Shown here: in pieces, positions 1 through 59,758 of the stretch
How positions within the stretch are numbered: the first letter of the stretch is position 1
Layout: every line of letters starts with the position of its first letter
Source of the DNA: Archangium violaceum
GTDB lineage: Bacteria > Myxococcota > Myxococcia > Myxococcales > Myxococcaceae
Length of the DNA stretch: 64,000 nt
Direction of reading: 5' to 3'
Assembly (NCBI RefSeq): GCF_016887565.1
Contig: NZ_CP069396.1
Location: forward strand, 10,460,001-10,524,000
Translations under genes and position numbers: made by a program
The notes under the pieces: model-generated
The model's database searches: none
The model's input: the letters and a program-made list of their open reading frames with translations, nothing else
Told to the model about the DNA's origin: nothing

Positions 1-155
1 GTATCGACTTCGATGACCGGCTCATCCAGGGACAGACGAACAAGTCCGGAGCCGTCTATCTGTACGACCGCAAGGAGCTGAAGACGCGGTCGATGATTCG
101 CGAGCGGGAGAACTTCCGCTCGGAAATCCTGTCCACCGTCTACGACCAGCCGTAG
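1..155 (+). CDS. 3' end of an unidentified gene
   Basis: The window opens inside a reading frame whose codons start at base 3 and which ends at TAG 153-155, leaving about 50 C-terminal residues. The visible tail is charged and hydrophilic and contains the stretch KELKTRSMIRERENF; no domain can be recognised from this fragment. It lies 41 bp upstream of the FHA/TonB-like gene on the same strand, so it may be the preceding member of the same envelope-machine operon. Function is not assigned. Confidence 0.6.
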   Translation, partial: IDFDDRLIQGQTNKSGAVYLYDRKELKTRSMIRERENFRSEILSTVYDQP

Positions 156-196: not shown

Positions 197-2386
197 GTGA
201 GCGGTCAGCAGACGGTTCTCCAGGTTGTCATTCTACGTGATGGGTTGCTCGTGGGCACCGAGGTGTTCACGCCAGGCTCGTACGTGCTCGGCTCGGGTCC
301 AGCGTCGGACCTGCGTCTGGACGACGCGAGCGTCGGGGCCCGCCACGCCGTCCTCTATTTCCAGAACGGGCGCGCGGCCATCCAGGACGCGGGCTCGAGC
401 TCGGGCATCTACGTCAACGGCCATCGCGTCTCCGCGTGTGAGATCCGCTCCACGGACGAGGTGCTCTGCGGCCCCTTCGTGCTGAAGACCCGGGTGCTGT
501 CGCAGCGGCCACGGGACGAGCGGCCGCAGCCGCCTCCCGAGGTGGCCGCGCTGCTCGGTGCCGCGCCGCCCCCGGTGGCGCCCGCGCAGGCCCAGGCGCC
601 CGTGGCCGCGCCGGTGCCTCCGGCGCCCACGGCGCAGCAGCTCGCCGCCACCCAGCCCATCGCGAGGCTGTCGGGCGCGGTGAGGCCCGTGGCGCCCGTG
701 CCGTCTCCACCGCCCGCGGTCACCGTGGCCGTCACGCGTCCCACCGCGTCGCCGGCGTCGCTGGCCGCCACGGCCGTCTATGGCTCGGGAGCCGTCCCGG
801 CCCGTGCCGTCCCGCCGCCCGCCGTCCCCGAGCCCGTGCCAGCGGCCACCATGCCCTCGACGCGCCGCCGCGCGGCCCCCCAGCCGGTGCAGGCCACGGG
901 CCCGGCGCTCGTGCTCGCGGATGAGATGCTCGCGGACCTGCCGGTGGAGGAGCCACCCGCGCGGGCAGCCGACACGGAGATACCGTGGGAGCAGGAGGCG
1001 GCACCGCTCGACCGTCCCACGCACGCGCCGCGCCTGGAGCAGGGCCGGGGCCCCGCGCAGCTCTACCTGGAGCTCTACTGGGGCGCCGTGCGCCGTGACG
1101 CGCGCCGCTTCGCGCCTGGAAAGAAGGTCCAGGCGGCCGCGGACGAGCGAGCCCCCATGCCGCTGTGGGGCTTCCAGCTCCCGGACGAGCCCTTCACGCT
1201 GGCGGAGACCGCCAGCGACGCCTTCCGCCTCTACGTGCCCAAGGGGGCGCAGGTGGAGCGGACCGGCCCTGGCGGCCGTTACGAGCGGATAGCGCCCAAC
1301 GCCCTGGAGGCGGAGGGAGGGCGCCGCTTCATCACCCTGCGCTCGGGCACCGCCGCGCGCCTCACCGAGGGGAAGATGTCGCTGGTGGCCTACGCGGCCC
1401 CGCTGCCCGAGAAGGTGCGCATCAACCCGCTCCAGGGCCTGCCCTGGCTGGCCATCGCGAGCTTCCTCTTCTTCAGCTCGGCCTTCGGCGGCTTCATCGC
1501 CTTCATGCCCAAGCGGCCGGAGGGCGCGGACTTCACCCAGAAGAACCTGCCGCCCGTGGCCCTGCGCCTGCTCGCGCCCGAGCCGAAGAAGAAGGAAGAG
1601 GCCAAGAAGAAGCTCGAGTCCATCAAGGAGAAGGCCAAGAAGCAGGTGGCCAAGAAGGACACCCCGACGCCGGTGGCGCCGCAGCCTCCCCCTCCCAAGG
1701 AGGAGAAGCCGGCGCCCGTTCCCAAGGCGGTGGCCGCCGCGCCCGAGGCCAAGGCCCTCAAGGCGCTCGCGAAGCTGTCGGCCGCGGGCCCCGCCACCAA
1801 GGACCTGTTGGCCGCGGTGGACAAGCTGGGCAGTGGCCCGGGCAGCAAGAACGCGAAGAACTCCAACTTCAAGCTCTCCGGCCTCATCGGCAAGGCGCCC
1901 ATCGCCAACGCGGGCCTGGGCACCTTCGGCCTGGGCGGCGGGGGCAAGGGCGGCGGCGCCACGCTCGGCGCGGAGATTCTGCGGGGCAAGGGCGGCGGCG
2001 GCATCGGCGCGCTGGGCGCGGGCGGCGTGGGCAAGGGCAAGGTGGGCGGCACGGTGGCCCGGGCCAGCGCGCGCACCATCGCGGCGCAGGGCTCCATCGA
2101 TCGCGAGGCCGTGGCCAAGGTGGTCAACAGCCACCTGCAGGAGGTGTACGCCTGCTACGAGCGCGCGCTGCTCAAGGAGCCCGGCCTCGCCGGCAAGGTG
2201 GTGCTGGAGTGGACGATCGGCACCAACGGCCGCGTGGTGGCCACCAAGACGAAGTCCTCCACCCTGCGCAGCCCCTCGGTCGAGGCCTGCATCCTCGGGG
2301 GACTGAAGACGTGGACGTTCCCGCCCGCCAAGGGTGGCGCCGTCATCATCACCTATCCCTTCATCTTCAACTCGGTCGGCTACTGA
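197..2386 (+). CDS. FHA-domain, AgmX/PglI-type TonB-like inner-membrane protein (GltG/NfsG-like)
   Basis: This 729-residue protein starts at GTG 197, with GGAGGA 7 bases upstream. An N-terminal forkhead-associated (phosphothreonine-binding) domain covers about residues 1-100, with the GSG, ARH and SSGIYVNG motifs. A Pro/Ala-rich linker follows, then a single membrane segment near 413-437 and a Lys/Glu-rich stretch near 465-490. A glycine-rich linker leads to a C-terminal TonB-like AgmX/PglI domain (about 632-729) containing a YACYERALL motif. This architecture is that of GltG of the Myxococcus gliding complex and NfsG of the spore-coat complex, which are thought to reach from the inner membrane into the periplasm. 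The next gene begins at its stop codon. Whether it belongs to Glt, Nfs or a third paralogous cluster cannot be decided here. Confidence 0.88.
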   Translation: MSGQQTVLQVVILRDGLLVGTEVFTPGSYVLGSGPASDLRLDDASVGARHAVLYFQNGRAAIQDAGSSSGIYVNGHRVSACEIRSTDEVLCGPFVLKTRVLSQRPRDERPQPPPEVAALLGAAPPPVAPAQAQAPVAAPVPPAPTAQQLAATQPIARLSGAVRPVAPVPSPPPAVTVAVTRPTASPASLAATAVYGSGAVPARAVPPPAVPEPVPAATMPSTRRRAAPQPVQATGPALVLADEMLADLPVEEPPARAADTEIPWEQEAAPLDRPTHAPRLEQGRGPAQLYLELYWGAVRRDARRFAPGKKVQAAADERAPMPLWGFQLPDEPFTLAETASDAFRLYVPKGAQVERTGPGGRYERIAPNALEAEGGRRFITLRSGTAARLTEGKMSLVAYAAPLPEKVRINPLQGLPWLAIASFLFFSSAFGGFIAFMPKRPEGADFTQKNLPPVALRLLAPEPKKKEEAKKKLESIKEKAKKQVAKKDTPTPVAPQPPPPKEEKPAPVPKAVAAAPEAKALKALAKLSAAGPATKDLLAAVDKLGSGPGSKNAKNSNFKLSGLIGKAPIANAGLGTFGLGGGGKGGGATLGAEILRGKGGGGIGALGAGGVGKGKVGGTVARASARTIAAQGSIDREAVAKVVNSHLQEVYACYERALLKEPGLAGKVVLEWTIGTNGRVVATKTKSSTLRSPSVEACILGGLKTWTFPPAKGGAVIITYPFIFNSVGY

Positions 2387-2430
2387 TGCGCTCCCCAGCG
2401 CGTCGGGCCGGCTTCCGCCAGGACCGAACC

Positions 2431-3069
2431 GTGCGAAACGCCCTGCTCCTCCTCTCGAGCCTCCTGCTGCCCGGGCTGGCCCATGCCCAGGCCGAGGCCC
2501 TCGAGAACCCCGGAACCGTCTCCGCCGTCCAGGAGCGTCAGTACCGGATGAACCACGAGCTGACGCTCGGCGTGGGCGTGCTGCCCGCGGACGCCTTCTA
2601 CAAGGGCGTGCTGGGCAGCGTCGGCTACACCTACCACTTCAGCGACAGCTTCGCGTGGCAGGTGGGCCGGGGCAGCTACAGCTACAACCTGAAGACGAGC
2701 CTGCGCGAGCAGCTCGAGCGCGACTTCGACGTGGCGCCCACCAACGCCGCCTTCGAGGAGCAGGTGCAGTGGATGGTGGGCTCGGACCTGGTGTGGAGCC
2801 CCATCTACGGGAAGATGGCCATCAGCAACCGCTCGGTGGTGCACTTCACCGGCTTCCTGCTGGGCGGCGCCACGGTGATGAAGCTGTCGCGCTCCGATGG
2901 CTTCCGCCCGGCCGTCAACCTGGGCGTGGGCGTGCGCGTCTTCACCAGCCGCAACGTCTCCTTCCGGTTGGACGTGACGAACAACACCGTCTTCGTGGGC
3001 GGCACCCGGCTCATCCAGGTCCCCACCTTCCAGCTGTCCACCGCGTTCAACTTCGGCGCCACGGAATGA
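2431..3069 (+). CDS. outer-membrane beta-barrel protein of the Glt/Nfs-like cluster
   Basis: Start GTG 2431 is chosen because it has AGGA 8 bases upstream and gives a clean signal peptide, MRNALLLLSSLLLPGLAHA followed by QA. An ATG at 2386 overlapping the previous stop would add 15 charged residues. The mature part (about 190 residues) alternates polar and hydrophobic residues, is rich in Gly/Tyr/Phe/Val, has an SVGYTYHFSD-type hairpin and ends in LSTAFNFGATE, all features of a small outer-membrane beta-barrel. Similar barrels accompany GltG/NfsG-type proteins in myxobacteria, where they are thought to form the outer-membrane part of the machine. The stop overlaps the next gene's ATG. The barrel assignment is an inference. 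Confidence 0.75.
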   Translation: MRNALLLLSSLLLPGLAHAQAEALENPGTVSAVQERQYRMNHELTLGVGVLPADAFYKGVLGSVGYTYHFSDSFAWQVGRGSYSYNLKTSLREQLERDFDVAPTNAAFEEQVQWMVGSDLVWSPIYGKMAISNRSVVHFTGFLLGGATVMKLSRSDGFRPAVNLGVGVRVFTSRNVSFRLDVTNNTVFVGGTRLIQVPTFQLSTAFNFGATE

Positions 3070-4619
3070 GTCCCCGCCCGCTTCTCGCCGCGCTCGTCTC
3101 CGCCGCGCTGCTCGCCGCGCCCGCGTCCGCCAAGGACCCGGCCGGTGGCGCGCCGGCGGCCACTCCCGCTCCCGCCGCTCCGGCCACGCCCGCCGCCGCG
3201 GCCCCGCCGAAGGACGCTCCGCCGAAGGACGCCCCTCCGCCTCCGCCCGAGAAGGTGCCGGACGAGGTGTTCGACAAGGCGCTGGCGGACTACTTCGCCG
3301 GCAACCCGCGCGCCGCCGCCGGGCCGCTCCACGCGTGGGTGTCCGCGGCGCCGCGGACGCACGAGAACTACGCCTGGGGCCAGTACTTCCTGGCCCGGAG
3401 CCTCATCGACCTGGGCTTCACCCATGCCGGTGGCGTGTACCTGGCCCGCATCGCGCGCGAGCGCTCCAACCCCAACGTGCTGCCCCGCGCCCTGGAGACG
3501 CTGCGCGAGCTGACGGATCGGCCGCACGACGAGGTGATGATCGACGAGGAGGTGTTCGGCGCGCTGGACCTGGGCTTCCTGCAGGAAGAGGCGGGCGCCT
3601 ACGCGCACTACCAGCAGGGGTTGGTGGACCTGCGGGTGGGCAACGAGCGCTGGGCCAACACGCACTTCTCCAAGCTGCCGGAGGGGAGCGCCGAGGCGAG
3701 CCGTGCGCGCTTCGCGCTGCTCGTCACGCGGCTGCGCGAGGTGAAGGAGCCCAACGACGAGCTCATCGAGGACTTCCTCGGGCTGTCCAAGGACGAGAAG
3801 CTCACGCGCGAGTCGCGCAACGAGGCGGCGCTGGCGGTGGCGCGGCTGCGCTACGAGCGCCAGAACTACAAGGGCGCGCTGGAGGCCTACCAGCTGGTGA
3901 AGCTGCCGGAGTTGGATCCGGGCCGGGCCACGCTGTACCTGGAGGAGGCGTGGACGCGCTACAAGCTGGGCGAGCCGCGCGCGTCCATGGGCATCCTCAC
4001 CACGCTGGACGCGCCCTCGTTCCGGGACGAGTTCCTGCCGGACAAGTACCTGCTGCGCGCGCTCATCTATCGAGACTTGTGCCACTACCTGCCGGCCAAG
4101 CGCGCGGCGAAGGAGCTGACGCGGCGCTTCGCGGACTCGCTGGAGAGCATCCGCAACCGGGAGGACCTGACGCAGGATCCGCGCATGCGCCGGGCCGCGA
4201 GCGCCCATGGCAACACGAAGCGCGCGGCGCGGTTCCTGGAGGTGCTGGAGCTGGAGGGAGAGCGCCTGGGCCGCTACGCGGGCAGCTTCGGCGAGCGGCT
4301 CTACACGCACCTGACGAAGACCTATGACCTGGCGCATGCCGAGGCCCAGCGCGTCTACCAGTCGAGGCTGGAGGAGGCGGTGAGGCAGGAGGCGGACACG
4401 CTGCTGCGGGCGACCGAGCAGGTGCGCCTGATGGAGTACGAAGTGGGCCTCAAGCTGTACGAGCGAGTGAAGAAGGGTGCCAAGGCGGCGGCGCCGCCCG
4501 AGGAGGAGCTGCTGTCCCCCTCGCAGGTGGGCTTCACCTTCGACGGCGAGTACTGGAACGACGAGCTGCGCTCGTACCGGGTCCGCCTCGACAGCCGCTG
4601 CATCGAGGAGAACCCATGA
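3066..4619 (+). CDS. secreted TPR protein, GltE/AglT-like
   Basis: The start ATG 3066 overlaps the previous stop as ATGA, indicating translational coupling. The 517-residue product has a signal peptide (MSPRPLLAALVSAALLAAPASA) and a Pro/Ala/Lys-rich linker to about residue 65. The remainder is helical, with tetratricopeptide-like repeats such as ENYAWGQYFLARSLIDLG and YERQNYKGALEAYQLV. Length and position beside a GltG-like gene resemble AglT/GltE, a periplasmic TPR component of the gliding machine with a paralogue (NfsE) in the spore-coat machine. It probably acts as a protein-interaction scaffold in the periplasm. The assignment to GltE rests on architecture, not on alignment. Confidence 0.72.
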   Translation: MSPRPLLAALVSAALLAAPASAKDPAGGAPAATPAPAAPATPAAAAPPKDAPPKDAPPPPPEKVPDEVFDKALADYFAGNPRAAAGPLHAWVSAAPRTHENYAWGQYFLARSLIDLGFTHAGGVYLARIARERSNPNVLPRALETLRELTDRPHDEVMIDEEVFGALDLGFLQEEAGAYAHYQQGLVDLRVGNERWANTHFSKLPEGSAEASRARFALLVTRLREVKEPNDELIEDFLGLSKDEKLTRESRNEAALAVARLRYERQNYKGALEAYQLVKLPELDPGRATLYLEEAWTRYKLGEPRASMGILTTLDAPSFRDEFLPDKYLLRALIYRDLCHYLPAKRAAKELTRRFADSLESIRNREDLTQDPRMRRAASAHGNTKRAARFLEVLELEGERLGRYAGSFGERLYTHLTKTYDLAHAEAQRVYQSRLEEAVRQEADTLLRATEQVRLMEYEVGLKLYERVKKGAKAAAPPEEELLSPSQVGFTFDGEYWNDELRSYRVRLDSRCIEENP

Positions 4620-7600
4620 CCGGCACCCTGACCGGCCTGCTCGTCGCGGCGATGCTGGCCGCTGGCCCCACCCCGCGCCCCTCGGGCCCCGCGGGCGTCA
4701 ACCCGCTGGTGTCGAAGGCGAAGGAGCGCGAGGAGCTCATCGAGAAGCTCAAGCGCGACATCTTCAAGGTGGACCGCGCCATTGGCGAGACGGAGCGGCT
4801 CATCGCCAAGAGCCGCAACGCGCCGTACCTGCCGGACCTGCAGTTCCGGCTGGCGGAGCTGTACGTGGAGAAGAGCCGCTACGTGTACTACCTCCAGGCC
4901 GAGCAGCGTCCGGCGGGGGCGAGCGGCGCCATGGTGTCGCCGGAGACGCGGCTGCTCAAGCAGAAGGCCGTGCAGATGTACTACCGGCTGCAGCGCGAGT
5001 GGCCGGACTTCCACGACGGCGACAAGGTGCACTTCTACCTGGCGCACGAGCAGCGCGAGCTGGGCTCCTTCGAGGACATGCTCAAGACGCTGGACGACCT
5101 GGTGCGCAAGTACCCGAGCAGCCCGCTGCGGCTGGAGGCGCTCCAGATTCTGGGCGACTACCACTTCGAGAAGTCGGACCTGGCGGCGGCGGAGAAGCAC
5201 TACACGACCATCCTGGAGGCGCCGCCCTCGCCGGTGCACGACCTGGCCCGCTACAAGATGGGCTGGATTCGGGTGAACCAGGCCAAGCACGCGGAGGCGG
5301 TGCCCTTCTTCGAGGCCGCCGCGGCGAGCGCCCCGCTGCCCGGGGTGGACGTGCAGAAGGCGCTCAACGTGAAGCGCGAGGCGCTGTTGGACCTCGTGTA
5401 CAGCTACACGGAGGCGAAGCCGGCCAAGGGCGCGCTCAACTACTTCGAGAAGCTGAGCGACAGCCGGGCCACGTACGCGCTCGCGCTGGACAAGCTGGGC
5501 AACCGCTACTTCATCAAGGCGCAGTACGAGTACGCCATCCCGGCGCTGCGCAAGCTGATGGAGATTCAGCACGACCCGGAGATGGACCTGGAGCGCTCGC
5601 AGAAGCTGTACGACGCGCTCAAGGCGGCCAAGGGCAAGGTGCTGCCGGAGCCGGAGGACCTGCGCTTCCTGGTGCGCGCGGCGGTGACGAGCAAGACGGA
5701 CCCGGAGCTGGACGAGGCCGAGCGGAAGAAGCACCTGGCGGAGCTGGAGGAGATGGGGCGCGACCTGGCCACGCAGCTGCACGTGGCGGCGCAGAAGAAG
5801 GAGGACAAGGGGCTGTACCTGAGGGCGGCGGCGGCCTACCGCGAGTACCTGGGACTCTTCCGGCCGGAGCAGTACGTGCGGACGATGATGAAGAACCGGG
5901 CGGAGGCGCTGTTCGCCGCGAAGGAGTTCCCCGGGGCCGCGCGGCAGTTCGAGGAGCTGGTGCGCTACGAGGCGAAGGCCAAGGACGAGCAGGGCTCGGA
6001 GGCGGCGATGTACGGGGCGCTGCTGGCGCACTTCTCCACGGTGAAGCCGGAGGAGGCGCAGCGCCGCAACGCCTTCGAGGTGGCGGATGCGCGGCAGGCG
6101 CTGAAGCTGATGGGAGCGGACTACGTGTCGCGCTACCCGAAGAGCCCGAACGCGCTGGAGGTGAAGTTCAACATCGCGCGCGCCTACTACGAGGACGGCG
6201 AGTTCCCCAAGGCGGCCGAGCTCTTCACGGCCTTCGCGCTCACGCACCCCACGCACAAGGACGCGACGGCGGCGGGCAACCTGGCGATGGACAGCCTGCG
6301 GCAGGTGAATGACTTCAAGGGGATGGAGGAGACGGGCCAGAAGTTCATCGGCTCGCCGTTGCCGGTGGCCTTCCAGAACGACGTGAAGCGCATCCTCACG
6401 CAGACGCGCGCCGAAGCGCTGGACGAGCTGGCGCTGAAGAGCTCGCAGGAGACGGGCGACGTCATCGAGGGCCTGCTGAAGGTGGCCAACGAGAACAAGG
6501 GCGCGGAGATTGGGGAGAAGGCGCTGTACGGGGCCTTCACGGCGGCGCGAGACAAGCGGGAGCTGCAGCGCGAGCGGGAGATTGGAAAGCGGCTGGTGGA
6601 CGAGTACCCGAAGAGCCAGTTCGTGCCGGACGTGTTGCTGACGCTGGGTCGGCACGCGGCGGAGGCGGCGGCGTTCACCGAGGCGGCGGGCATCTTCGAG
6701 ACGGTGGGAGCGAAGCTGGGCTCGGACGTGGCGGCGGTGGATGGCTGGCTGACGGGAGCGCGGCTGCGGCAGGCGCTGGGGCAGTTCCGTGAGGCGGCGA
6801 GGGACCTGGAGGCGGCATCGGAGGTGGCGGGGGCGCGCAAGGCGGAGGTGATGGTGCAGCTGGCGGAGGCGCACCTGAAGTCGAAGGACTACGCGAAGGC
6901 GAAGGCGGCGGCGGAAGTGGCGCTGAAGCTGGACAAGACGAGCGCGGCGGCGGTGGCGGTGCTGGCGGAGGTGCAGGCGACGACGGCGGTGAAGGACGCG
7001 CCGGACGGGCTCATCAAGACGCTGACGGCGGCGGTGCAAGGGCCGAACGGACAGACGGAGGAGGCGGCCAAGGGCCTGTGGTACCTGGGAGAAATCCTGT
7101 ACCGCGCGTACAAGGACCTGGGGTCGGACAAGGTGGAGGAGAAGGTGTCGGCGCTGCAGGGGTTGGAGGGCGTGTACACGCAGGCGGCGTCACTGGGGTA
7201 CCCGGAGTGGGCGGTGGCGTCGTTGTGGAAGGTGGGCCTGGCATACGGACACCTGGCGGACGTGGTGGAGGCGACACCGACACCGGCGGGGTCCTCGGCG
7301 GCGGACGCACAGGCCTTCCGCAAGGCGGTGGCGGAGCAGGTGGCGCCGCTGAGGCAGCGGGCGCAGGACGCCTTCGAGGCGTGCGTGTCGCGAGCGGAGT
7401 CGCTGGAGGTATTCAACGCGGCGGTGGTGGGCTGCCGGACGAAGACGGAGACGGTGGCGCTGCCGGTGCCCGCGCCTGGGGCCTCGTCGCAACCCTCCTC
7501 GCTGGAGGAGCTGCGCAAGAAGGCGGAGGCGGCGCTGACGGCGGAGGCGCTGGAGGCGCTGGGGGTGGGCTACCTGAGCGCGAACCAGTTCGGGCTGGCG

Positions 7601-7885
7601 CAGCTGACGTTGGGGCGGGTGACGGAGCTGCAGGACACGAGGGCCTCCGCGCATAGCGCCTTGGGCTGGGCGATGCTGAACCAGGGGGACGCGATGGGTG
7701 CGCGCGAGGCATACGCGAAGGCACTGGAAGCGGACCCGACGTACGACAAAGCGAGACTGAACCTGGCGGCGCTGCGATGCCGCTTCGGTGACACCGAGGG
7801 GGCGAGGCGGGAGCTGTCGGTGCTGAAGGACGTGGGAGGCCTGAGTGGTCCCGACGTGGACACCGGGTGGAAGGCATGCAAATGA
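4616..7885 (+). CDS. large TPR protein, GltD/AgmU-like
   Basis: A 1089-residue protein whose ATG 4616 overlaps the upstream TGA. A short hydrophobic N-terminus (TGLLVAAMLAAGPTPRP) suggests export. Almost the whole chain is alpha-helical TPR repeats, many with YxxGEFPKAAELF or KDYAKAKAAAEVAL patterns and KYPSSPLRLEAL-type loops typical of outer-membrane-associated TPR lipoproteins. AgmU/GltD and NfsD are proteins of similar size and repeat content in the Glt and Nfs complexes. Downstream genes follow with overlaps, so it belongs to the same transcription unit. Strong codon bias with repeated gcggcg runs makes it prone to spurious overlapping reading frames. Confidence 0.75.
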   Translation: MTGTLTGLLVAAMLAAGPTPRPSGPAGVNPLVSKAKEREELIEKLKRDIFKVDRAIGETERLIAKSRNAPYLPDLQFRLAELYVEKSRYVYYLQAEQRPAGASGAMVSPETRLLKQKAVQMYYRLQREWPDFHDGDKVHFYLAHEQRELGSFEDMLKTLDDLVRKYPSSPLRLEALQILGDYHFEKSDLAAAEKHYTTILEAPPSPVHDLARYKMGWIRVNQAKHAEAVPFFEAAAASAPLPGVDVQKALNVKREALLDLVYSYTEAKPAKGALNYFEKLSDSRATYALALDKLGNRYFIKAQYEYAIPALRKLMEIQHDPEMDLERSQKLYDALKAAKGKVLPEPEDLRFLVRAAVTSKTDPELDEAERKKHLAELEEMGRDLATQLHVAAQKKEDKGLYLRAAAAYREYLGLFRPEQYVRTMMKNRAEALFAAKEFPGAARQFEELVRYEAKAKDEQGSEAAMYGALLAHFSTVKPEEAQRRNAFEVADARQALKLMGADYVSRYPKSPNALEVKFNIARAYYEDGEFPKAAELFTAFALTHPTHKDATAAGNLAMDSLRQVNDFKGMEETGQKFIGSPLPVAFQNDVKRILTQTRAEALDELALKSSQETGDVIEGLLKVANENKGAEIGEKALYGAFTAARDKRELQREREIGKRLVDEYPKSQFVPDVLLTLGRHAAEAAAFTEAAGIFETVGAKLGSDVAAVDGWLTGARLRQALGQFREAARDLEAASEVAGARKAEVMVQLAEAHLKSKDYAKAKAAAEVALKLDKTSAAAVAVLAEVQATTAVKDAPDGLIKTLTAAVQGPNGQTEEAAKGLWYLGEILYRAYKDLGSDKVEEKVSALQGLEGVYTQAASLGYPEWAVASLWKVGLAYGHLADVVEATPTPAGSSAADAQAFRKAVAEQVAPLRQRAQDAFEACVSRAESLEVFNAAVVGCRTKTETVALPVPAPGASSQPSSLEELRKKAEAALTAEALEALGVGYLSANQFGLAQLTLGRVTELQDTRASAHSALGWAMLNQGDAMGAREAYAKALEADPTYDKARLNLAALRCRFGDTEGARRELSVLKDVGGLSGPDVDTGWKACK

Positions 7886-8403
7886 GCCCCCGGGTTCCGA
7901 GCACCCTCTCCCTCTGGGAGAGGGCCGGGGTGAGGGTCTTCCCCGCCCTCCTGGCGCTCCCGCTGGTCGCCTGCGCGCCCGCCAAGGTGCTGGAGGGCAG
8001 CGTCACGCCCCTCCTGGACCTGAGCTACGAGCGAGCCGAGGCCCAGGCCTCGCAGACGGAGGTCACCGTGAGCTTCCTGCGTCCACAGGGAGCGGGAGAG
8101 GACACGCTCCTGAAGGTGACGGCGAAGCTGGAAGGAATCACCCTGGAGCCGCGGGTGGCCATCGATCTGGCGCAGCGGGTGGGCAGCGACACCGAAGGCC
8201 CGCGGCGAGGCACGGTGAGCCGCAGCGTGCTGGACGAACCGGCGCGCCAGTTCCCGGCCATCGAGAGAGGGGAGCTGGTGTTCGACGGGTACCTGGACTC
8301 GGGGAAGAAGGTGGAGGGGGAGCTGCACATCACCTTCACCAACGGCACCGACGTCTACTCTGGCCGTACCATCTTTGGCCGCTTCGAGGCGACCGTTCCA
8401 TGA
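7882..8403 (+). CDS. small lipoprotein of the Glt/Nfs-like operon, with a repeat element across its 5' end
   Basis: A lipoprotein with the lipobox LVAC. Two starts are credible. ATG 7882 overlaps the preceding TGA as elsewhere in this operon, giving 173 residues and an unusually long leader. GTG 7930 gives MRVFPALLALPLVACAP, a textbook lipoprotein signal, and 157 residues. A hairpin repeat (7904-7938) supplies the codons for LWERAGVRV in the longer form, and its GGGAGAGGG lies just upstream of GTG 7930, where it could act as the ribosome-binding site. The mature protein (about 140 residues) looks beta-rich and matches no family I recognise. It sits between TPR and coiled-coil components, suggesting an outer-membrane-anchored accessory. 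Confidence 0.7.
   Translation: MSPRVPSTLSLWERAGVRVFPALLALPLVACAPAKVLEGSVTPLLDLSYERAEAQASQTEVTVSFLRPQGAGEDTLLKVTAKLEGITLEPRVAIDLAQRVGSDTEGPRRGTVSRSVLDEPARQFPAIERGELVFDGYLDSGKKVEGELHITFTNGTDVYSGRTIFGRFEATVP
7904..7938 (+). repeat. hairpin repeat copy 1, at the start of a lipoprotein gene
   Basis: An inverted repeat with arms CCCTCTCCC and GGGAGAGGG is followed by the tail CCGGGGTGAGGGTCTT. The same unit recurs near 10975-11062, 24171-24248, 42164-42185 and 48951-48985. The other copies are intergenic; this one overlaps the coding start of the lipoprotein gene. Confidence 0.85.
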
Positions 8404-9038
8404 AGCGCACAGTCCTGCCATTCGTGCTGCTGCTCGCCGCGGCGTGCGGCCCCCGCTACGGGATGAGGGTCCCGGACAAGCTGGTGGAGAAGCTGCCGTA
8501 CGAGAGCCGAATCGAGCTGTTGGAGTCGGAGAACGACCTGGCGTTGGCCATCGACACGGTGGACGAGGCCAGCAACGAGGTGCTGCGGGCGCGCGACGCC
8601 ATCCGGAGGGCGAAGGCGCGGGAGTCGGCGGCCGAGGAAGAGGAGAACCGCGCGGCGGACACGGCGTCGCGGGAGGTGGCGAAGCTGGCCATCGAGGAGG
8701 CGCGGGCGCGGGTGACGTACCTGAGGGCGAAGCAGCGGCTGAACGTGGGGCTGCGGGACGTGGAGCAGCTGGCGCTGCGCTGTGCGTTCGCGCGCTACGA
8801 GCTGGCGCGGCTGCAGTCGACGCGCAAGGCGAAGGTGGAGGGGAGCGAGAAGCTGGACGTGAAGAAGTACGAGGGGCAGGTCTCCCAGTGTGAGGCGAAG
8901 GTGAAGGAGGAGCGGGCGGAGTTGGCGGAAGACAGTGCTCAGGAGAAGACAGCGCGGGAGGCCTGGGAGGTGAAGAAGGCCGCCCTGGCGAAGAAGACTT
9001 TCGACGCACGCGCGAGCCCCTACGTGGAGAACCTGTGA
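8400..9038 (+). CDS. coiled-coil lipoprotein of the Glt/Nfs-like operon
   Basis: ATG 8400 overlaps the upstream TGA by four bases. The 212-residue product has a lipoprotein signal (MKRTVLPFVLLLAAACGP, Cys at about residue 16). From about residue 30 to the end it is Glu/Lys/Ala/Arg-rich with heptad spacing, predicting a long coiled coil (for example VDEASNEVLRARDAIRRAKA). One internal CEAK and one RCAF cysteine are present. No enzymatic motif is visible. A lipid-anchored periplasmic helical protein fits a spacer or tether role in the envelope machine encoded around it, but this is inference from context. Confidence 0.72.
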   Translation: MKRTVLPFVLLLAAACGPRYGMRVPDKLVEKLPYESRIELLESENDLALAIDTVDEASNEVLRARDAIRRAKARESAAEEEENRAADTASREVAKLAIEEARARVTYLRAKQRLNVGLRDVEQLALRCAFARYELARLQSTRKAKVEGSEKLDVKKYEGQVSQCEAKVKEERAELAEDSAQEKTAREAWEVKKAALAKKTFDARASPYVENL

Positions 9039-10945
9039 TGACGCGAGCTGGCCTGCTGATGTTGCAGCTGCTCACCGCCCAGACGCCCGCGGTGGAGGCG
9101 GCGCCGCCGGAGGAGACGGTGGCGGAGTCCGCGCCGCGAGCGGAGATGTCCGCGGAAGCGGAGAAGCTGTACCGGCTGGGGACGGCCTTCCTGGCGCAGG
9201 GGCAGCCCCGGAAGGCGGTGGCGCCGCTGACGAAGCTGACGGAGCGTGAGCCGGAGCTGCTGCCGCCGAAGGTGGCGCTGGCCCGAGCGCTGCGGCTGTC
9301 GGGGGAGACGGACAAGGCGCGGGCGCTGCTGGACGCGGCGCTGGCCACGTGGCCGCAGGAAGCGGGGCTGCACGCCGAGCGCGGACTGCTGGCGAGGGCG
9401 CTGGACGAGCGGGACACGGCGATTGCGCGCTTCACGAAGGCGGTGGAGCTGTCGCCGAGGGACGCGGAGTTGCGCTTCAACCTGGGCGAGGCGCTGCAGC
9501 GCGCGGGGAAGACGGACGAGGCCATTTCGGCGTACCGCGAGGCGTTGAAGCTGGACGAGACGCTGACGTCGGCGCGGGTGAACCTGGGCAAGGGGCTGGC
9601 GGACAAGGGGCTGGCGGGAGAGGCACAGGAGACGCTGCGGGAGGCGACGCGGCTGGCGCCGAGGGACGCGGAGGCGCACTACAACCTGGGCGTGCTGCTG
9701 ATGCGCGAGGGCACGCTGGACGGTGCGGTGTCCGCGTACGAGAAGGCGTTGGCGGTGGCGCCGAAGCACGCGCTGGCGCACAACAACCTGGGAGTGGCGC
9801 TGGACGCGCAGGGCAGGCACGACAAGGCGCTGGAGAGCTTCCGCAAGGCGGTGGCGGCGGACGCGAAGTACGCGGAGGCGCACTTCAACCTGGGGATGGC
9901 GTACTTCCGCAAGGACGACCACATCCGGTCGACGAAGCACTTCGAGAAGGCGCTGGCGCTGGAGCCTCGGAGGGCGAGCGGCCCGTACACGCAGCTGGGG
10001 GCGAGCTACCTGGCGCAGGGCAAGCGGGACCGGGCGGTGGAGGCCTACAAGAAGGCACTGGAGGCGAGCGCGGAGGACGGCAAGCCGAACACGGAGGCGT
10101 GGCAGGGGCTGGCGAGGGCGTACCTGGGGATGGGCAAGGTGGACGAGGCGGTGGCGACGCTGGCGAAGGCGGTGGAGGGCTTCCCGAAGGACGCGAGCGC
10201 GCGGGCGGCGTACGGAGACGCGCTGTTGGCGAAGGGGGAGTTGGACGGAGCCATCGCGCAGTACGAGGAGCGGCTGGAGCTGGAGCCGACGACGGAGGCC
10301 CGGCTGGCGCTGGCGAAGGCGTACGCGCGCAAGCGGGTGGGAGCGAAGGCGGCGCCGCTGTACGAGGCGGTGCTGGAGGAGGAGCCGGAGAACGCGGCGG
10401 CGAAGCTGGGGCTGGCGGACCTGTACCTGGCGATGGGGAACTACGACGGGGCGGAGAAGCAGCTGAAGCCGAGGGAGGGCGAGGAGGCGGACACGGCGGC
10501 GCTGGCGAGGCTGGGCATCCTGCACTCGAGGCGGGGGCGGCCGGACCTGGCGGTGCCGGAGCTGGAGGCGGTGACGAAGAAGGATCCGGCGCAGCTGGAC
10601 GCGAGGGCGGAGCTGGGCTTCCTGTACCTGCGAGGCGGGGACAAGGAGAAGGCGGTGAAGGTGTTGGGGGACGTGGTGGCGTTGGAGCCGGGGCACGCGT
10701 ACGGACTGCTGTACCTGGGGCACGCGCTGTACCAGTTGGGGAAGCCGAAGGAAGCGGAGCAGTCCTTCCGGGGCTCGGTGAAGATGGATCCAGCGTTTGG
10801 AGAGCCGCACTACGCGCTGGGCCAGTTGCTGGAGGCGTCGGGGAAGCTGGTGGAGGCGAAGGCCGAGTACGAGAAGGCGGCGGAGCTGCAGAAGGACCAC
10901 CCGGACGCGGCGGCGGCGGCGAAGCGTCTGAGCAGCGCGAAGTAG
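9038..10945 (+). CDS. TPR-repeat protein closing the Glt/Nfs-like operon
   Basis: The start ATG 9038 overlaps the preceding TGA (TGATG); an in-frame GTG lies at 9035. The 635-residue protein has a short hydrophobic leader and then classical tetratricopeptide repeats for nearly its whole length. Examples are AEAHYNLGVLLMREGTLDGA and ALAHNNLGVALDAQGRHDKA, with the canonical W/L-G-Y-A-P spacing. About fifteen repeats can be counted by eye. It ends at TAG 10943-10945, after which comes a double hairpin repeat. It resembles periplasmic TPR scaffolds of gliding clusters (for example GltC-type proteins), but TPR arrays are too generic for a firm orthology call. Confidence 0.75.
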   Translation: MTRAGLLMLQLLTAQTPAVEAAPPEETVAESAPRAEMSAEAEKLYRLGTAFLAQGQPRKAVAPLTKLTEREPELLPPKVALARALRLSGETDKARALLDAALATWPQEAGLHAERGLLARALDERDTAIARFTKAVELSPRDAELRFNLGEALQRAGKTDEAISAYREALKLDETLTSARVNLGKGLADKGLAGEAQETLREATRLAPRDAEAHYNLGVLLMREGTLDGAVSAYEKALAVAPKHALAHNNLGVALDAQGRHDKALESFRKAVAADAKYAEAHFNLGMAYFRKDDHIRSTKHFEKALALEPRRASGPYTQLGASYLAQGKRDRAVEAYKKALEASAEDGKPNTEAWQGLARAYLGMGKVDEAVATLAKAVEGFPKDASARAAYGDALLAKGELDGAIAQYEERLELEPTTEARLALAKAYARKRVGAKAAPLYEAVLEEEPENAAAKLGLADLYLAMGNYDGAEKQLKPREGEEADTAALARLGILHSRRGRPDLAVPELEAVTKKDPAQLDARAELGFLYLRGGDKEKAVKVLGDVVALEPGHAYGLLYLGHALYQLGKPKEAEQSFRGSVKMDPAFGEPHYALGQLLEASGKLVEAKAEYEKAAELQKDHPDAAAAAKRLSSAK

Positions 10946-51399: not shown

Positions 51400-52496
51400 G
51401 CCTCACCGCCTGGGCCGGGACCGGGTGGTATGCTGGGACGCGGTCCACCATGAACGAAGGCTCCATCGTCCGCGCCACGCTCAAGGCGCTCCTGGTGCCC
51501 AGGCGGCTCATCCCGATCGTGCTCGTGAGCCTGCCGCTGGTGGCGGCGCAGGCGCGCTTCAGCCACCAGAGCATGGCGGGCCCGCTGGGCGTGCTGATGT
51601 GCGCCGTGTGCGTGGCGGTGGCCCCGGTGTCCTACCGCGTCATCTTCCCCGAGGGACTCGACTTCAGCCACGGAGGCATCCGGCTGCTGCTCTACGCCAC
51701 GGTGGGAGTGGGCGTCGTGCTCTCGGTGGGCGTGGTGCTGCCGCAGTTGCTGGACATCGGGCGCACCTTCCTGACGGACCGGTACAGCCTGGCGGTGTGC
51801 ATGGCGCTGTTCCTGGTGGGCGGATGGGGACTGGGGAGGGACATCGGCTTCGAGGAGAGCCTCGCCCGAGAGAGGGCCCGTGCGGCGCGGCTCGAGCTGG
51901 AGGCGGAGCAGGCGCAGCTGCTGGCGCTGCGCAGCCACCTGGATCCGCACTTCCTCTTCAACACGCTGAACGCCATCGCTGAGTGGTGCCAGACGGATGG
52001 AGCGGTGGCCGAGGCGGCCGTGCTGAGACTCTCCGCCATGCTGCGCAGCGTGCTGGCCGGGGTGAGGGCCGCCACCTGGCCGCTGGAGCGCGAGCTGGAG
52101 CTGGTGCGCACGCTGTTCGACCTGCACCTGCTGAGAGATCCGGGCCTCTTCCAGCTCTCGGTGGAGGTGGAACCAGGCCTGGAGTCATTCCCCGTACCGC
52201 CGCTGGTGCTGCTGCCACTGGCGGAGAACGCGGTGAAGCACGGGCCCGCCGCCGGCCACCGCGGGCCCATCACCCTCACGGTGAGGGCACGAGGCGACGA
52301 GCTCGCCTTCACCCTGGAGAACCCCGGCGCCTCCAAGGGGCCGCGCGAGGGAAGCAGTGGACTGCCCACGGTGGAGCGCCGACTCGCGCTCGCCTACGCC
52401 GGACGCGCGAGCCTCGCGCTGACCAGCGAAGCCGAGCGCACCCGGGTGGCCGTCACCCTGCCCCGCTCCGGCCCCGTGCCCGGCATCATTACTTGA
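51396..52496 (+). CDS. LytS/YehU-type membrane histidine kinase
   Basis: GTG 51396 (GGAAG 7 bases upstream, overlapping the small peptide's stop) gives 366 residues; ATG 51450 is an alternative start. Four or so hydrophobic helices lie between about residues 40 and 150, a coiled coil at 150-185, and then the His_kinase (PF06580-type) motif LRSHLDPHFLFNTLNAIAEW with the phosphorylated His. The ATPase part has PLAENAVKHG and a GSSGLPTVERRL G-box. LytS-type kinases normally pair with a LytTR response regulator, but none is adjacent here. The downstream region changes to A+T-rich DNA. Confidence 0.88.
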   Translation: MSLTAWAGTGWYAGTRSTMNEGSIVRATLKALLVPRRLIPIVLVSLPLVAAQARFSHQSMAGPLGVLMCAVCVAVAPVSYRVIFPEGLDFSHGGIRLLLYATVGVGVVLSVGVVLPQLLDIGRTFLTDRYSLAVCMALFLVGGWGLGRDIGFEESLARERARAARLELEAEQAQLLALRSHLDPHFLFNTLNAIAEWCQTDGAVAEAAVLRLSAMLRSVLAGVRAATWPLERELELVRTLFDLHLLRDPGLFQLSVEVEPGLESFPVPPLVLLPLAENAVKHGPAAGHRGPITLTVRARGDELAFTLENPGASKGPREGSSGLPTVERRLALAYAGRASLALTSEAERTRVAVTLPRSGPVPGIIT

Positions 52497-52834
52497 GCGG
52501 ACTCAGGTTCCCTTTTCACTGTATTGCCGGAGTGAGTGCCGGTTGGTCATGTCCTTCAGCCCCCTCCCCCACGCCTGCTGCAACAGCGGGAGCAGGTGTC
52601 AAGTATCGCGCTCCCACGCGCTTTCGGTGATGGTTGCCAGTAACAAGCACTTTTGAGTTTAAGTTGCTTGCCCTGTGACAGAGCAGTAGAGCGCTTCCTT
52701 CATGCATATGCAGATTCTCTGCGCCTTTACTTCCTCATCAGCCATAATGCTCTTTAAAGTTGGCTGCTCGCTCCCGTTCACACCCAACACTCGCTCATCA
52801 ACCATCAGGCGCTACAGTCCAGGAGTCACAATTA
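52497..52834. other. gene-free left boundary of the A+T-rich defence block
   Basis: No credible gene is seen. The sequence shifts from G+C-rich to A+T-rich around 52640. CCTGCT and AGCAGG near 52577-52600 could form a weak hairpin after the kinase gene. AGGAG at 52821-52825 is the ribosome-binding site of dtcA. The dtcA promoter must lie here, but I could not place the boxes convincingly. No tRNA or attachment-site repeat was recognised. Confidence 0.5.
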
Positions 52835-55800
52835 ATGCACAAAAAACACAGATCCTCAAAACTCATCAAGCTCGACCAAAAGCGCCAAGCAGTTAAAAAC
52901 CTCGAGAGCTACTGGCTCGACCCAAACGAGTACATGTCTGACATCGCCAGACTGAAACTCGAAAGCCCAATGACTATCAGGATGGCGCTGCGAGAGGCCC
53001 CCAGCACAGCCATACGCCTATTCGCTACTGGGAATCCATTCCCCAACACATACGACTCAATCTCAAAACACCCCACCACACATTTCTCCGAAAACATAGC
53101 AACCGAACTCACATGGACCACGGAAGTACTTTGCCAGCTCTCTCAAGAACTAAACACGTTCCTAGAGACCAAGCGTCATTTCGATCAAGCACTCTTGCGA
53201 AACGACTTTTCCGCAGCCCAATACAATCTAGATCAAATACAAAAAGAATTCGGCCAATCCTTTTGGCTCATAAACTCACACCTATTATTGGCTGAATATC
53301 GCGGCGGCCTAAAGGAGAATCGCGAATTCCTCCAGACTCTCAGAAACAACAGCCCCCAGCAATACACCCAATTCATCGCAGCATATTACAGCCAGCGCAC
53401 AGAAAAAAACCTATCAAGCTCAAATTACGACAAAGAAGTAGCGTCTTTTCGAAAAGCATTCGCAGACCAACCGGAACGAGACGCCCCGGTGGAGCACATC
53501 TGCTTCATACTCGCATTTTCAAGCCTGGACAATTACAAACATCTAGACTACATCCTTCACAGAGAAAGCGTACATCCAGCTATCGATCGCTACGCGAATT
53601 ACATCAGGATCCTCTCCATTCTTCAAGCTACGGCTGACGCGGAACTACTTCAGACAGTCCGAGCATGCGTACTCAGGGCATCAGAGCAGTTTCGAGATTC
53701 ACGCCTCTTAATGCTCCGACATCTCCACGAGCCATCAACACCGGTCAAGCCGTCAGAACAGGGGCGCCTGTTGATGACAGCCATTGATTCATACACATCC
53801 GGAGACTATCAAAGCGCAGAAAAGCTATCTCTCGACGCACTAAACAAGTATCCGGATTGCTTTGAATTCTATGAATTAAACGCAGAGGCATCACTCCATC
53901 TTGAGCAAAAACCTTCATCTCCTTTCGCTCAACAGTCGCTGGCAAGTGAAATCCTAAACGCTACGTTTGACGTTCTGAACAAAAGCGACAAGACAGTTGA
54001 CTCACTAAGACTCTTAAGAAAACTCGCAGGCAGCCTAGATGGCATGCAGCTTGCTGATCAACTCTTGGCGTTCGTGCTGAACCAGGAGAACCCTCGCCAT
54101 GCCCTCAACCCACGCCTGTTCGGCGCGATCAACAGTTCGGCACCGACGCCCAGGGTATCGTCTCTGTTTCGCGCAAGATCTGATTCTCGAAAATACCTCG
54201 ATCAACTCACAAAAATAACTCCAGTAGAATCAACAGCAAGACTGTTCGCCGCCGTACATGGAGATCCGCCTTTTTCCCAACCTGTCACAGGAATACCCGA
54301 AACAAGGTGGCAGAACTATAAAGCATACGCGCTGATGCGCTCTGGCGATTTCGCGGGGGCTGCATCCATCTACAGGCAATTGCTCGATAAAAACAGAGCA
54401 TCACCGCCGCTCAAACAAAGAGCAACCCTCGGTCTTCTGGAATGCCTGCTAAACACTCGCCAATTCAGAGAAAGCGCCGAACTAATAGTTGACACCTATT
54501 TAAACCAAAGAGCATTACTTATCTCGGTTTCTCTAGACGAACTGGTAAAGAACTGCCAAGAAAACCCAGATAGCGCCCTAGCAGGCGACATTTGTTGGCC
54601 AATCGCATGCTACATTCACTACTCCAACAAGGGTGAACTCAAAGAGAATGAAGCTCTGTATTACGCGTGCGAAGACTTTTTGAATTCCATTGAAATCGAA
54701 CGACCGAGTGAATTGAACCAAATTGCTGAATCGCTCGACCAGCGCAAACTTATCTTCTTCTTACGATACATATGCATTCCCGAAGTCTTGGATTTCTCGA
54801 TAGCATACGGAAGTTCCGCTGACCTGGAGAACGAGAGAATCAAGATTTGCCAGTGGCTGCTCCTTCTTGATCCAAAAAACGCGGAAATCTACTCACGAGA
54901 AATCTCTGAACTCACGCAAGCCGGAATGATTCGCAGTGCAATGATCCACTTGGATGAAAGCAAGGTCTACATCGACACCAAGGGAATCGCACACTCACTT
55001 GACTCTCTATTCAAGGAGAGATTTGAACGATACGTGTCTTACTCACGTCTCGACCAAGGACTGCGTGCCAACTTGTCACTCAAAGGCATCTCCTTCAAAG
55101 AGGACGAAGACATCTTCGTTGTCAGTGATGCCGGCTTGCATCAATTCAGTGAACTCTTCAACGAGTTAAAAAACAGATTCATATCAAGCAATGAGTACGG
55201 CTTGGACTCCTACCTGAGCGTGAGAATCCGCCACGGAACATTATCCGGTCAAATCAGGAGTCAATTCGAGAAGGAAAACCTAATAACTCGCCGCAGCAAC
55301 TCCGACGGAGCCTATGACAAAAACGACTTCTGGTCTGAACGAGTATTCTCTCGCTTTGGCTCTGCAATCGAAAATAGCGCCGACGCATTCTTGCGTGAAT
55401 TCTCGCATCGCATTGATTCAATAATTGAAACAGTAAAAAGCAAGTGGATCCAAATCAAAGGCCCATCCAACGCGGGAGAAGGCCTTTTTGACTTCGACTA
55501 CACAAACAGCCAAATACTAGACCTTTACATCAAAAACATAAAAACAACAACATACAATAGTTTTTTGCAAGCGATCTTCAACGAACTCTGGAATCGAACA
55601 ACCGACAATCTTGCAAGGGTTGTCAACAGAATAAAAGTCGAGCTCAGAGAGCAACTCACAGAAGCTCTCGACACAGTAGCTGGAAAAATATTCGACCTTC
55701 ATGGCGAGATCCGGCACTCCTCATTTGGAGATGCTGTGACCCGATGTCGCACGGGCATTCAGAACGAAATCGAAACGATTTCTGCTTGGTTCCGGGCGGC

Positions 55801-56326
55801 AAGCGAGAAGGCTGCGCCAGATTTCAAGTTCACCCTGCTCTCCGAAACAGCAACAGAGGTCGTTCGCAGATGCTTCCCGACTTCATACCTTTGGCTAGAG
55901 ACATCGATATCCACCCAAGAGACATTCAAGGGAGAGTCGTTCGCAGGATTCGTTGACGTTCTCTTCATATTGCTTGAGAACATTGTACGACATTCTCGTC
56001 CACCGTTTCGGCCCAAACTCGATGTCTCGGTACAGGATAGCCGACTCTCGCTCCGAGTCTCGAACCCAATAGGCCCATCTGTCGACACTCCAGTTCTACA
56101 AGCAAAAATATCAAACCTAAACAACATCAAATCCAACACGACCTTGGCAAGGACAATTCGCACAGAAGGGGGCAGCGGCTATTACAAACTGCACAAGCTT
56201 ATTCGTCACGACCTGGATAGAGGTGAGGACTACTCCGTCTCCATCAGCATAACTGACGCCGGAGCTTTCGAGGTGATAATCGAAATGGGACTCAAGGGGC
56301 TGCTGCATGCGAATTCTCGTCATTGA
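52835..56326 (+). CDS. dtcA: Detocs sensor histidine kinase-like protein DtcA
   Basis: A 1163-residue cytoplasmic protein; ATG 52835 has AGGAG 9 bases upstream. About residues 60-800 are helical and TPR-like (YTSGDYQSAEKLSLDALNKY; ALMRSGDFAGAASIYRQLLD). A helical stretch follows with candidate phospho-accepting histidines H956 and H961 in LHGEIRHSSFGDAV. The GHKL ATPase domain at the C-terminus has the N-box LLENIVRH (N1049) and the G-box TEGGSGYYKLHKLI (1110-1123). In Detocs, DtcA senses phage infection and phosphorylates receiver proteins DtcB and DtcC; the two following genes fit exactly. There are no membrane segments. Codon use is A/T-rich, unlike the surrounding genes, indicating transfer. 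It overlaps dtcB by 20 bases. Confidence 0.85.
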   Translation: MHKKHRSSKLIKLDQKRQAVKNLESYWLDPNEYMSDIARLKLESPMTIRMALREAPSTAIRLFATGNPFPNTYDSISKHPTTHFSENIATELTWTTEVLCQLSQELNTFLETKRHFDQALLRNDFSAAQYNLDQIQKEFGQSFWLINSHLLLAEYRGGLKENREFLQTLRNNSPQQYTQFIAAYYSQRTEKNLSSSNYDKEVASFRKAFADQPERDAPVEHICFILAFSSLDNYKHLDYILHRESVHPAIDRYANYIRILSILQATADAELLQTVRACVLRASEQFRDSRLLMLRHLHEPSTPVKPSEQGRLLMTAIDSYTSGDYQSAEKLSLDALNKYPDCFEFYELNAEASLHLEQKPSSPFAQQSLASEILNATFDVLNKSDKTVDSLRLLRKLAGSLDGMQLADQLLAFVLNQENPRHALNPRLFGAINSSAPTPRVSSLFRARSDSRKYLDQLTKITPVESTARLFAAVHGDPPFSQPVTGIPETRWQNYKAYALMRSGDFAGAASIYRQLLDKNRASPPLKQRATLGLLECLLNTRQFRESAELIVDTYLNQRALLISVSLDELVKNCQENPDSALAGDICWPIACYIHYSNKGELKENEALYYACEDFLNSIEIERPSELNQIAESLDQRKLIFFLRYICIPEVLDFSIAYGSSADLENERIKICQWLLLLDPKNAEIYSREISELTQAGMIRSAMIHLDESKVYIDTKGIAHSLDSLFKERFERYVSYSRLDQGLRANLSLKGISFKEDEDIFVVSDAGLHQFSELFNELKNRFISSNEYGLDSYLSVRIRHGTLSGQIRSQFEKENLITRRSNSDGAYDKNDFWSERVFSRFGSAIENSADAFLREFSHRIDSIIETVKSKWIQIKGPSNAGEGLFDFDYTNSQILDLYIKNIKTTTYNSFLQAIFNELWNRTTDNLARVVNRIKVELREQLTEALDTVAGKIFDLHGEIRHSSFGDAVTRCRTGIQNEIETISAWFRAASEKAAPDFKFTLLSETATEVVRRCFPTSYLWLETSISTQETFKGESFAGFVDVLFILLENIVRHSRPPFRPKLDVSVQDSRLSLRVSNPIGPSVDTPVLQAKISNLNNIKSNTTLARTIRTEGGSGYYKLHKLIRHDLDRGEDYSVSISITDAGAFEVIIEMGLKGLLHANSRH

Positions 56327-56771
56327 GGACGACCACAACAAGGCCAAGAAGATATGTGATTTTCTTCGAGAAGCCGCATCAGATGCAAATATCAATGAAC
56401 GGCGTGCATATCAAAGCGGCCTCAAGGAGGCGATAACAACCGTACCCGACCTGATAGTTCTCGACATGACCATGCCCACATACGAAATCTCCTTGGCGGA
56501 GAAAGGAGGAAGAATCCGCCCATACGCAGGTAGAGAAATCTTAAGCGCAATAAAAAGGAGAAAATTAAAATCCAAGATAGTAATCGTCACTCAATTTGAA
56601 AGCTTTGGAGAGGGAGCAGATGTCATGACACTTGAACAGCTCAAGACGAAGCTCCAATCGGAATTCCCCGACAACTATCTAACAACCATATTCTACCAAC
56701 CATCAGAGTCGAGCTGGCGTGATCATTTGGAACAGACTCTAAACAACGTTCGACTAATCATTGAAGGATAA
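56307..56771 (+). CDS. dtcB: stand-alone receiver protein, DtcB-like
   Basis: A 154-residue single-domain response regulator beginning inside the end of dtcA. It has the acidic pair in ILVIEDDHNK, the phosphoacceptor D53 in LIVLDMTMP and the switch Thr in IVIVTQF. The conserved Lys of the last strand is missing: the segment reads FYQPSESSW. There is no output domain. In Detocs, DtcB is thought to compete for phosphoryl groups and so buffer accidental activation of the toxic effector DtcC. The four-base gap to dtcC supports co-expression. Confidence 0.85.
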   Translation: MRILVIEDDHNKAKKICDFLREAASDANINERRAYQSGLKEAITTVPDLIVLDMTMPTYEISLAEKGGRIRPYAGREILSAIKRRKLKSKIVIVTQFESFGEGADVMTLEQLKTKLQSEFPDNYLTTIFYQPSESSWRDHLEQTLNNVRLIIEG

Positions 56772-56775
56772 GACC

Positions 56776-58008: not shown

Positions 58009-58310
58009 CTTACTTCGCGCCTCTTTCAATCCCGAGTACCCAAAGGATTTCAAAGCTTGAGCGATTAGCCCAAGCGCAACGAGAGTCGGGAATGAGATGA
58101 GAGGAAATCAGACCGAGAAGTCTCGCCGCATCCAACGAGTTGCTGCCGCGCGGACCGATACGACGCGAGCACGGTACCGCTCGCACAGCTCCCGCAACAC
58201 CTAACAACGTTGAGGCATGCCGCAGCGGGCTGCACTTGTGTGCAGCCGCACGCTGCCGACGCCCCCCGGTAGCACCGGTAGCCACCGCGCGCGCAGAACT
58301 TCCACCACTA
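58009..58310. other. gene-free stretch between dtcC and the nested IS
   Basis: No credible gene is seen. Base composition returns to G+C-rich by about 58130. A perfect hairpin GGCTGCAC-TTGT-GTGCAGCC occupies 58228-58247; without a U-tract it is only a weak terminator candidate. CTTAG at 58311-58315 is the left target duplication of the outer insertion sequence. Confidence 0.5.
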
Positions 58311-58342
58311 CTTAGTTCGAGTTTCGCACTTTTGGACGGGGG

Positions 58343-58813
58343 TCAAGCCACCGCCCTCAAGGAGCCAGGCAGGAGCAAGAGGAGGTTTTGTCGACCCTGC
58401 TCGGCATGAGGGTTCGCAGAAATCGCGGCGCGCAGACAGGCGTAGCGCAGGGTGGTGAGCATGTCGGCGAAGGAGGGGCGTAGCTTGTGGCGGTACCAGG
58501 GCCGAAAGGGAGGCTTGTAGAGGGTATGGCCCTCCTGGGCAAACCACAGCACCGTCAGGCTGTAGAGGAGCATGGCCAGAGGCGCGGTACGTCGCACGGC
58601 CTGACGGCTCCAGCCTTGCGGCTCCTCGAAGCCCAGGTGGCTCTTGCTGCCCTGGAAGGCCTCGTCGATGGACCAGCGCCCCGCGTATCCACCCAGCACC
58701 CCCTCGACGGACGTCTCGGTGGCGGTGGAGTAGAAGGCTTGCACGGGACGGCCACCCGTCAGAGGCTCGACGGCTACCACCTTGAGAGGTCGCTGGTGCG
58801 TATTCCGGCCATC
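58343..58813 (-). pseudogene. C-terminal part of the split outer transposase
   Basis: This is the 3' portion (156 codons plus stop) of the transposase whose 5' portion is at 61520-62410. It begins in frame with DGRNTHQRPLKVVAVEPL and carries the DDE-family signature YAGRWSIDEAFQGSKSHLG, which holds the catalytic acidic residue in the Y-R-E-K context of IS4-like enzymes. Removing the IS21 element plus one copy of GTGATCAC rejoins the two halves in frame into a protein of about 453 residues. The gene is inactive as it stands. Confidence 0.85.
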
Positions 58814-58890
58814 GTGATCACCCAGATCGGTCGATCGTGATCAGGTGGATCGGTCATCGTGATCGGAGCGAAGCGACGCTGACCGGGGAC

Positions 58891-59631: not shown

Positions 59632-59758
59632 GTGCTTGTCCTCGGGTGTGTGGCACCTGCTTGGGTGCCGCGGTGTTGGAGAGCTTCGTCGTCGCGCGCC
59701 GGCGCACGCAGTGCGACGGCGCGCCCCTCACGCACGAGGCTCGTGGGTAGCGTGAGGG

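Follow-up and report, generated by a model that had tools for sequence, protein, structure and literature searches.

A probable Archangium violaceum orthologue of Myxococcus xanthus cluster G5, and a proposed force-transducing role for it in the cell envelope

Two envelope machines built from related parts have been characterized in Myxococcus xanthus: Glt (gltA-K), which serves gliding and works with the AglRQS motor (hereafter M1), and Nfs (nfsA-H), which acts on the spore coat during sporulation. In 2011 the clusters G3 (nfs), G4 and G5 were listed as paralogous, the function of G4, of G5 and of the motor M2 being stated as unknown; a polar mutation in MXAN_1327, one of the four M. xanthus gltD homologues (the others being MXAN_4870, MXAN_3374 and MXAN_1922), left motility unaffected (Luciano et al. 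2011, PMC3169522). Our literature search found no function for G4, G5 or M2, and no paper on MXAN_1324-1336. The stretch of Archangium violaceum DNA analysed here (the window: 64,000 nucleotides, positions 10460001-10524000 of a single 13.2 Mb contig) begins with an operon that is almost certainly the orthologue of cluster G5 (MXAN_1327), of the Agl-Glt/Nfs class, where G5 was identified by elimination with M. xanthus AM003 as the comparison strain. The machine has therefore been known since 2011 and is not new; new are its computed spread through the phylum, its motor pairings, its Mts-type neighbours and the loss of an arginine from its FHA domain. We propose, with a probability of roughly 0.4, that G5 may be a trans-envelope force transducer, which would be proton-driven, would borrow M2 (or AglRQS) in the family of the window (f1) and would display or move cohesion proteins.

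The assignment to G5 follows from the D proteins and the gene orders. In a tree of 40 D sequences the G5 proteins form a single group (25 rows, support 100/100), whereas GltD, NfsD and the D of G4 each constitute a separate group with 100% support; the GltD proteins of the window's genome and of M. xanthus both fall outside the G5 clade. Since mglA is MXAN_1925 (PMC4316618), the cluster linked to mglBA is G4 (MXAN_1922). M. xanthus AM003 contains exactly four strong D loci, which match the four gltD homologues; with G4 set by mglBA, the window and its AM003 orthologue (L046) are G5 by elimination. The D proteins of these two are 78.5% identical, and the whole operon is syntenic in AM003 together with its divergently oriented neighbours. 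The glt, nfs and G4 clusters have their own places in the window's genome (glt G1 at 4.60-4.63 Mb, glt G2 at 4.00 Mb, nfs at 7.29 Mb, and G4 at 9.70 Mb, adjoining mglBA), and a syntenic glt, nfs or G4 operon was ruled out as an identity for the locus by the D tree and the gene orders. An earlier note, made from the sequence alone, had described a Glt/Nfs-like machine with a gene order unlike that of glt and nfs, and this description holds for both the homologous core proteins and the orders. Orthology with glt or nfs, which the same note had named as the finding that would overturn it, was looked for with GltD and was not observed. Its suggestion of a third paralogous machine of unknown function stands in so far as the locus is neither glt nor nfs; the machine had not gone unrecognized, being the published G5 (PMC3169522). 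The parts of the operon are as follows (F to E, window positions).

1 to 155, plus strand: 3' end of F, an exported GltF/CglF-like protein of 137 amino acids; whole gene at L009:17742-18155, i.e. window -258 to 155 (NF033764 35.5 bits, below the cut-off of 90; hhalign GltF 94%, NfsF 87%).
197 to 2386, plus strand: G, an inner-membrane protein of 729 amino acids with an FHA domain, a transmembrane segment, a Pro/Ala/Lys linker and a C-terminal AgmX/PglI (TonB-like) domain (PF00498 2.3e-12; NF033768 113.7 bits, cut-off 40).
2431 to 3069, plus strand: outer-membrane beta-barrel of the OMP_myx_plus type, GltA/GltB-like, 212 amino acids (TIGR04565 113.1 bits, cut-off 60; hhalign to the GltA/GltB-position proteins 97-98%).
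3066 to 4619, plus strand: C, a periplasmic GltC/NfsC-like TPR protein, 517 amino acids (NF033756 77.5 bits; hhalign GltC 97%, NfsC 95%).
4616 to 7885, plus strand: D, a large exported GltD/NfsD-like TPR protein, 1089 amino acids (hhalign GltD/NfsD/G4D 99.5-99.8%; in the G5 clade of the D tree).
7930 to 8403, plus strand: lp1, a small lipoprotein (lipobox LVAC), predicted to be all-beta, conserved in 21 Myxococcaceae.
8400 to 9038, plus strand: lp2, a lipoprotein (lipobox AAAC) with three long predicted helices (87% mean column identity in alignment A1).
9035 to 10945, plus strand: E, an exported GltE/NfsE-like TPR protein, 636 amino acids (hhalign NfsE 98.7%, G4E 98.5%, GltE 98.4%).

The seven open reading frames between 197 and 10945 lie head to tail and form, together with the F gene that is cut by the left edge of the window, one operon with the order F-G-barrel-C-D-lp1-lp2-E. 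Gaps of 44 bases separate G from the barrel gene and D from lp1, and the other four of the six junctions between the frames (barrel-C, C-D, lp1-lp2 and lp2-E) have a gap of -4, i.e. a 4-base overlap of stop and start. As the order of the seven frames is kept in about 20 Myxococcaceae (46-84% identity, depending on the gene), they are real genes and not chance reading frames; the F gene is kept upstream of G in every relative that has this flank. G scores 221 bits against the GltG equivalog NF033760, below its cut-off of 650, and the barrel is by hhalign nearest to GltA/GltB and not to GltH. The seven mostly overlapping frames of the earlier note, its FHA and AgmX/PglI domains in 197-2386, its small barrel and its two lipoproteins without a counterpart were all recovered, lp1 and lp2 having no match in Glt, Nfs, G4, Pfam or NCBIfam. 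The frame 3066-4619, which it had called E-like, is GltC-like instead, and the E-like protein is that of 9035-10945; its inventory did not include the eighth gene, F, most of which lies beyond the window. A further FHA/AgmX-PglI protein, very similar to GltG and with no other glt genes close by, is encoded on its own at L058:10468-12294 (10.03 Mb in the genome).

As a single set with homologues of G, C, D and E, the operon falls into the Agl-Glt/Nfs class. With Glt it shares homologous F, G, C, D and E proteins and the related barrel, but the gene order is unlike, GltH-, GltI-, GltJ- and GltK-like genes are lacking and two lipoproteins have been added. Nfs likewise has homologous F, G, C, D and E proteins, but in another order, with several barrels where G5 has one, and without lp1 and lp2. 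G4 has D, E, F, G and C in common with G5; it lacks lp1 and lp2, and contains the genes of the motor M2 in distant taxa. In the window's genome no GltK/CglC-like frame was called upstream of gltB/gltA/gltC (L076:6218-6606), unlike the M. xanthus G2 order.

The G proteins differ in the FHA domain as well. The Gly-Arg pair of FHA domains that bind phosphothreonine is mostly kept in the G5 G proteins of distant families (f6, f7, f11, f13, f24 and f25), whereas all aligned G5 G proteins of f1, that of the window included, have Gly-Ser; at the same position GltG retains the arginine and NfsG, like the G of f1, has lost it to serine. Because of this replacement, G5 of the window's family is probably not switched through binding of phosphothreonine by the FHA domain.

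Of 195 Myxococcota genomes, 113 carry an orthologous D (identity down to about 30%; at that lower end a few could be D proteins of another type) and 93 carry lp2. Comparison of 20 G5 loci, which represent other families and an early branch of the window's own, revealed that the order G-barrel(s)-C-D-lp2-E is mostly kept where the contig permits, with lp2 adjoining D; departures occur in L119, with an unmatched small frame in the place of lp2, and in L115, in which G follows the motor genes. The gene lp1 is confined to the families f1, f6, f7 and f8 (matches in L110-L112 and L124). On these sequence comparisons G5 is an ancient, phylum-wide machine of the Myxococcota, and lp2, specific to G5 and nearly always following D, is its signature lipoprotein. 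G5 is missing in 15 of the 96 f1 genomes, among them every member of g6 (four genomes) and, within the window's genus, four of the five others; thresholds were set search by search, and draft genomes blur the calls of absence. That large, complete genomes do without it indicates that basic envelope integrity is independent of G5, and makes it improbable that G5 is a general, Tol-Pal-like system for envelope stability with no specific surface cargo, for all that a TolQ/ExbD-type motor, TPR proteins, lipoproteins, a barrel and a wide distribution would suit such a system.

The predicted structure of lp2 (predicted local distance difference test, pLDDT, 84) has helices at 34-84, 88-143 and 154-204, and that of lp1 is mostly beta at low confidence (pLDDT 63). 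Searches of the PDB with the two models gave no match at E<=0.001, the lp1 model being too weak; for lp2 a resemblance to BAR/arfaptin-like helical bundles appeared only at E of about 0.04-0.3, which is not significant.

In six of the distant loci (L106, L107, L113, L114, L115 and L119) G5 has a TolQ-ExbD(-ExbD) set next to it. In the TolQ tree these sets form, with one unlinked member from G190, a clade M3 (99/99), distinct from M1 (97/96) and M2 (99/96) and placed beside M2 rather than M1 with weak support (87/63). Only M1 and M2 were seen in the window's genome, and the seven other TolQ proteins tested from it fall outside the three clades. We infer that G5 originally came with its own motor and borrows M2 or M1 in f1. 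Motor sets of the M2 type (that of MXAN_3003-5) are found inside the G4 cluster in 11 loci (L125-L131, L133, L135, L141 and L142), usually between E/F and G. Their location in distant Myxococcota points to G4 as the machine to which M2, an orphan motor in M. xanthus, belongs. MXAN_3003 showed no two-hybrid binding to GltG or NfsG (PMC3858216), which would fit a role for M2 with G4 and/or G5.

Ten f1 genomes are without M2; all of them have M1, and G5 is missing from eight, the exceptions being the drafts G072 and G086; for the co-occurrence of G5 and M2 a Fisher test gives 1.9e-6 with kinship ignored. As G4, scored by a family-wide search for its G, follows the same pattern, the pairs G5-M2 and G4-M2 are inseparable by co-occurrence. 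The candidate explanation that M2 is simply the motor of G5, both being missing in g6, g2 and g23, was accordingly weakened to one of sharing, G4 being missing there too and M2 lying inside G4 in distant taxa. For M2 as a motor of G5 in the window's family these patterns leave a chance that falls a little short of even. It is also possible, though we would not count on it, that AglRQS drives G5 as it does Glt and Nfs and that M2 serves G4 only: among the f1 genomes M1 is missing from a single draft, two G-type partners are already known for AglR (PMC3858216), the 11 distant loci have M2 embedded in their G4 clusters, and G162 carries G5 and M1 in the absence of M2. This assignment has to contend with the distant G5 clusters, whose own motor groups, if weakly, with M2 and not with M1, and with the f1 genomes that have M1 but not M2, which apart from the two drafts have no G5 either.

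To the left of the window, at L009:3784-12954 and divergent from the operon, lies a cluster for MtsC/MtsD-type proteins with VWA domains and thrombospondin-3 repeats. The divergent genes encode a cytochrome c/beta-propeller protein (L009:15377-17512), an MtsD-like protein, MtsC (NF047638 600 bits) and MtsD (NF047639 1268 bits); the NCBIfam descriptions of the MtsC and MtsD families are of cell-cell cohesion proteins, and the VWA motif DxSxS is retained by MtsD and its paralogue L009:6139-7878. A literature search on Mts proteins found no paper. Mts-type or cytochrome/propeller neighbours occur at seven of the 20 G5 loci (L112, L115, L118, L119, L120 and, weakly, L122 and L123) and at none of 40 control loci, taken around motors in the same phylum (p = 2e-4). 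The surface adhesin of Glt is the lipoprotein CglB (PMC12288465), and by analogy G5 may serve Mts proteins as Glt serves CglB; Mts-type proteins are thus put forward as the cargo of G5 only tentatively. Should the Mts neighbours be incidental, G5 might instead transport or pack a surface polysaccharide, in the way that the spore-coat polymer is handled by Nfs and slime by Glt. The association of both characterized relatives with polymers (PMC3858216) and the core parts that they share with G5 speak for this, but no polysaccharide genes recur beside the 20 distant G5 loci, where the recurrent flanks include motors, MtsD-type proteins and cytochrome/propeller proteins, and we consider it unlikely. 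Elsewhere in the window, positions 52000-60000 have a G+C content of 51-57% against about 69% in the remainder, and are possibly foreign DNA.

In the proposed force transducer a proton motor of the TolQ/ExbD type would move G, the inner-membrane protein with the TonB-like periplasmic end. In the distant families this motor would be M3, a third Agl-type motor dedicated to G5 and encoded next to its operon; in the window's family G5 would borrow M2, ancestrally the motor of G4, much as Nfs relies on the AglRQS of Glt. The force would be relayed by C, D and E to the barrel and the lipoproteins, where it might load, unmask or move the VWA/thrombospondin-3 surface proteins of the MtsC/MtsD group, in parallel to Glt with its VWA adhesin CglB.

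Several observations weigh against this proposal. In the window's family G5 has no linked motor gene, and M3 genes were not found. The loss of M2 in f1 amounts to only about three lineages (g6, g2 and g23), all of them also without G4, and G4 or genome reduction may therefore account for the link between G5 and M2. The genome G162, which is complete, has no M2 at the threshold used, and M2 is therefore not obligatory everywhere; conversely, g1 and a few others retain M2 in the absence of G5. The link to Mts proteins is one of proximity alone: the genes are divergent from the operon and not co-transcribed with it, and many G5 loci have none nearby. Of the seven neighbour matches, two are weak (22-28 bits), and the controls were loci around motors, not random loci.

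The most far-reaching version, in which G5 would be a third functional type of Agl-Glt/Nfs machine, spread through the Myxococcota, with M3 as ancestral motor and lp2 as signature lipoprotein, handling VWA/thrombospondin-3 adhesins for cell-cell cohesion, and in which the Myxococcaceae would have lost the motor and the phospho-binding site of the FHA domain and share M2 with G4, is doubtful as a whole. If true, it would mean that one type of force-transducing machine has been adapted to gliding, to the winding of the spore coat and to cell-cell adhesion. The pairings of M2 with G4, of the third motor with G5 and of MtsC/MtsD-type adhesins with G5 make the function-less list of 2011 concretely testable in a tractable species.

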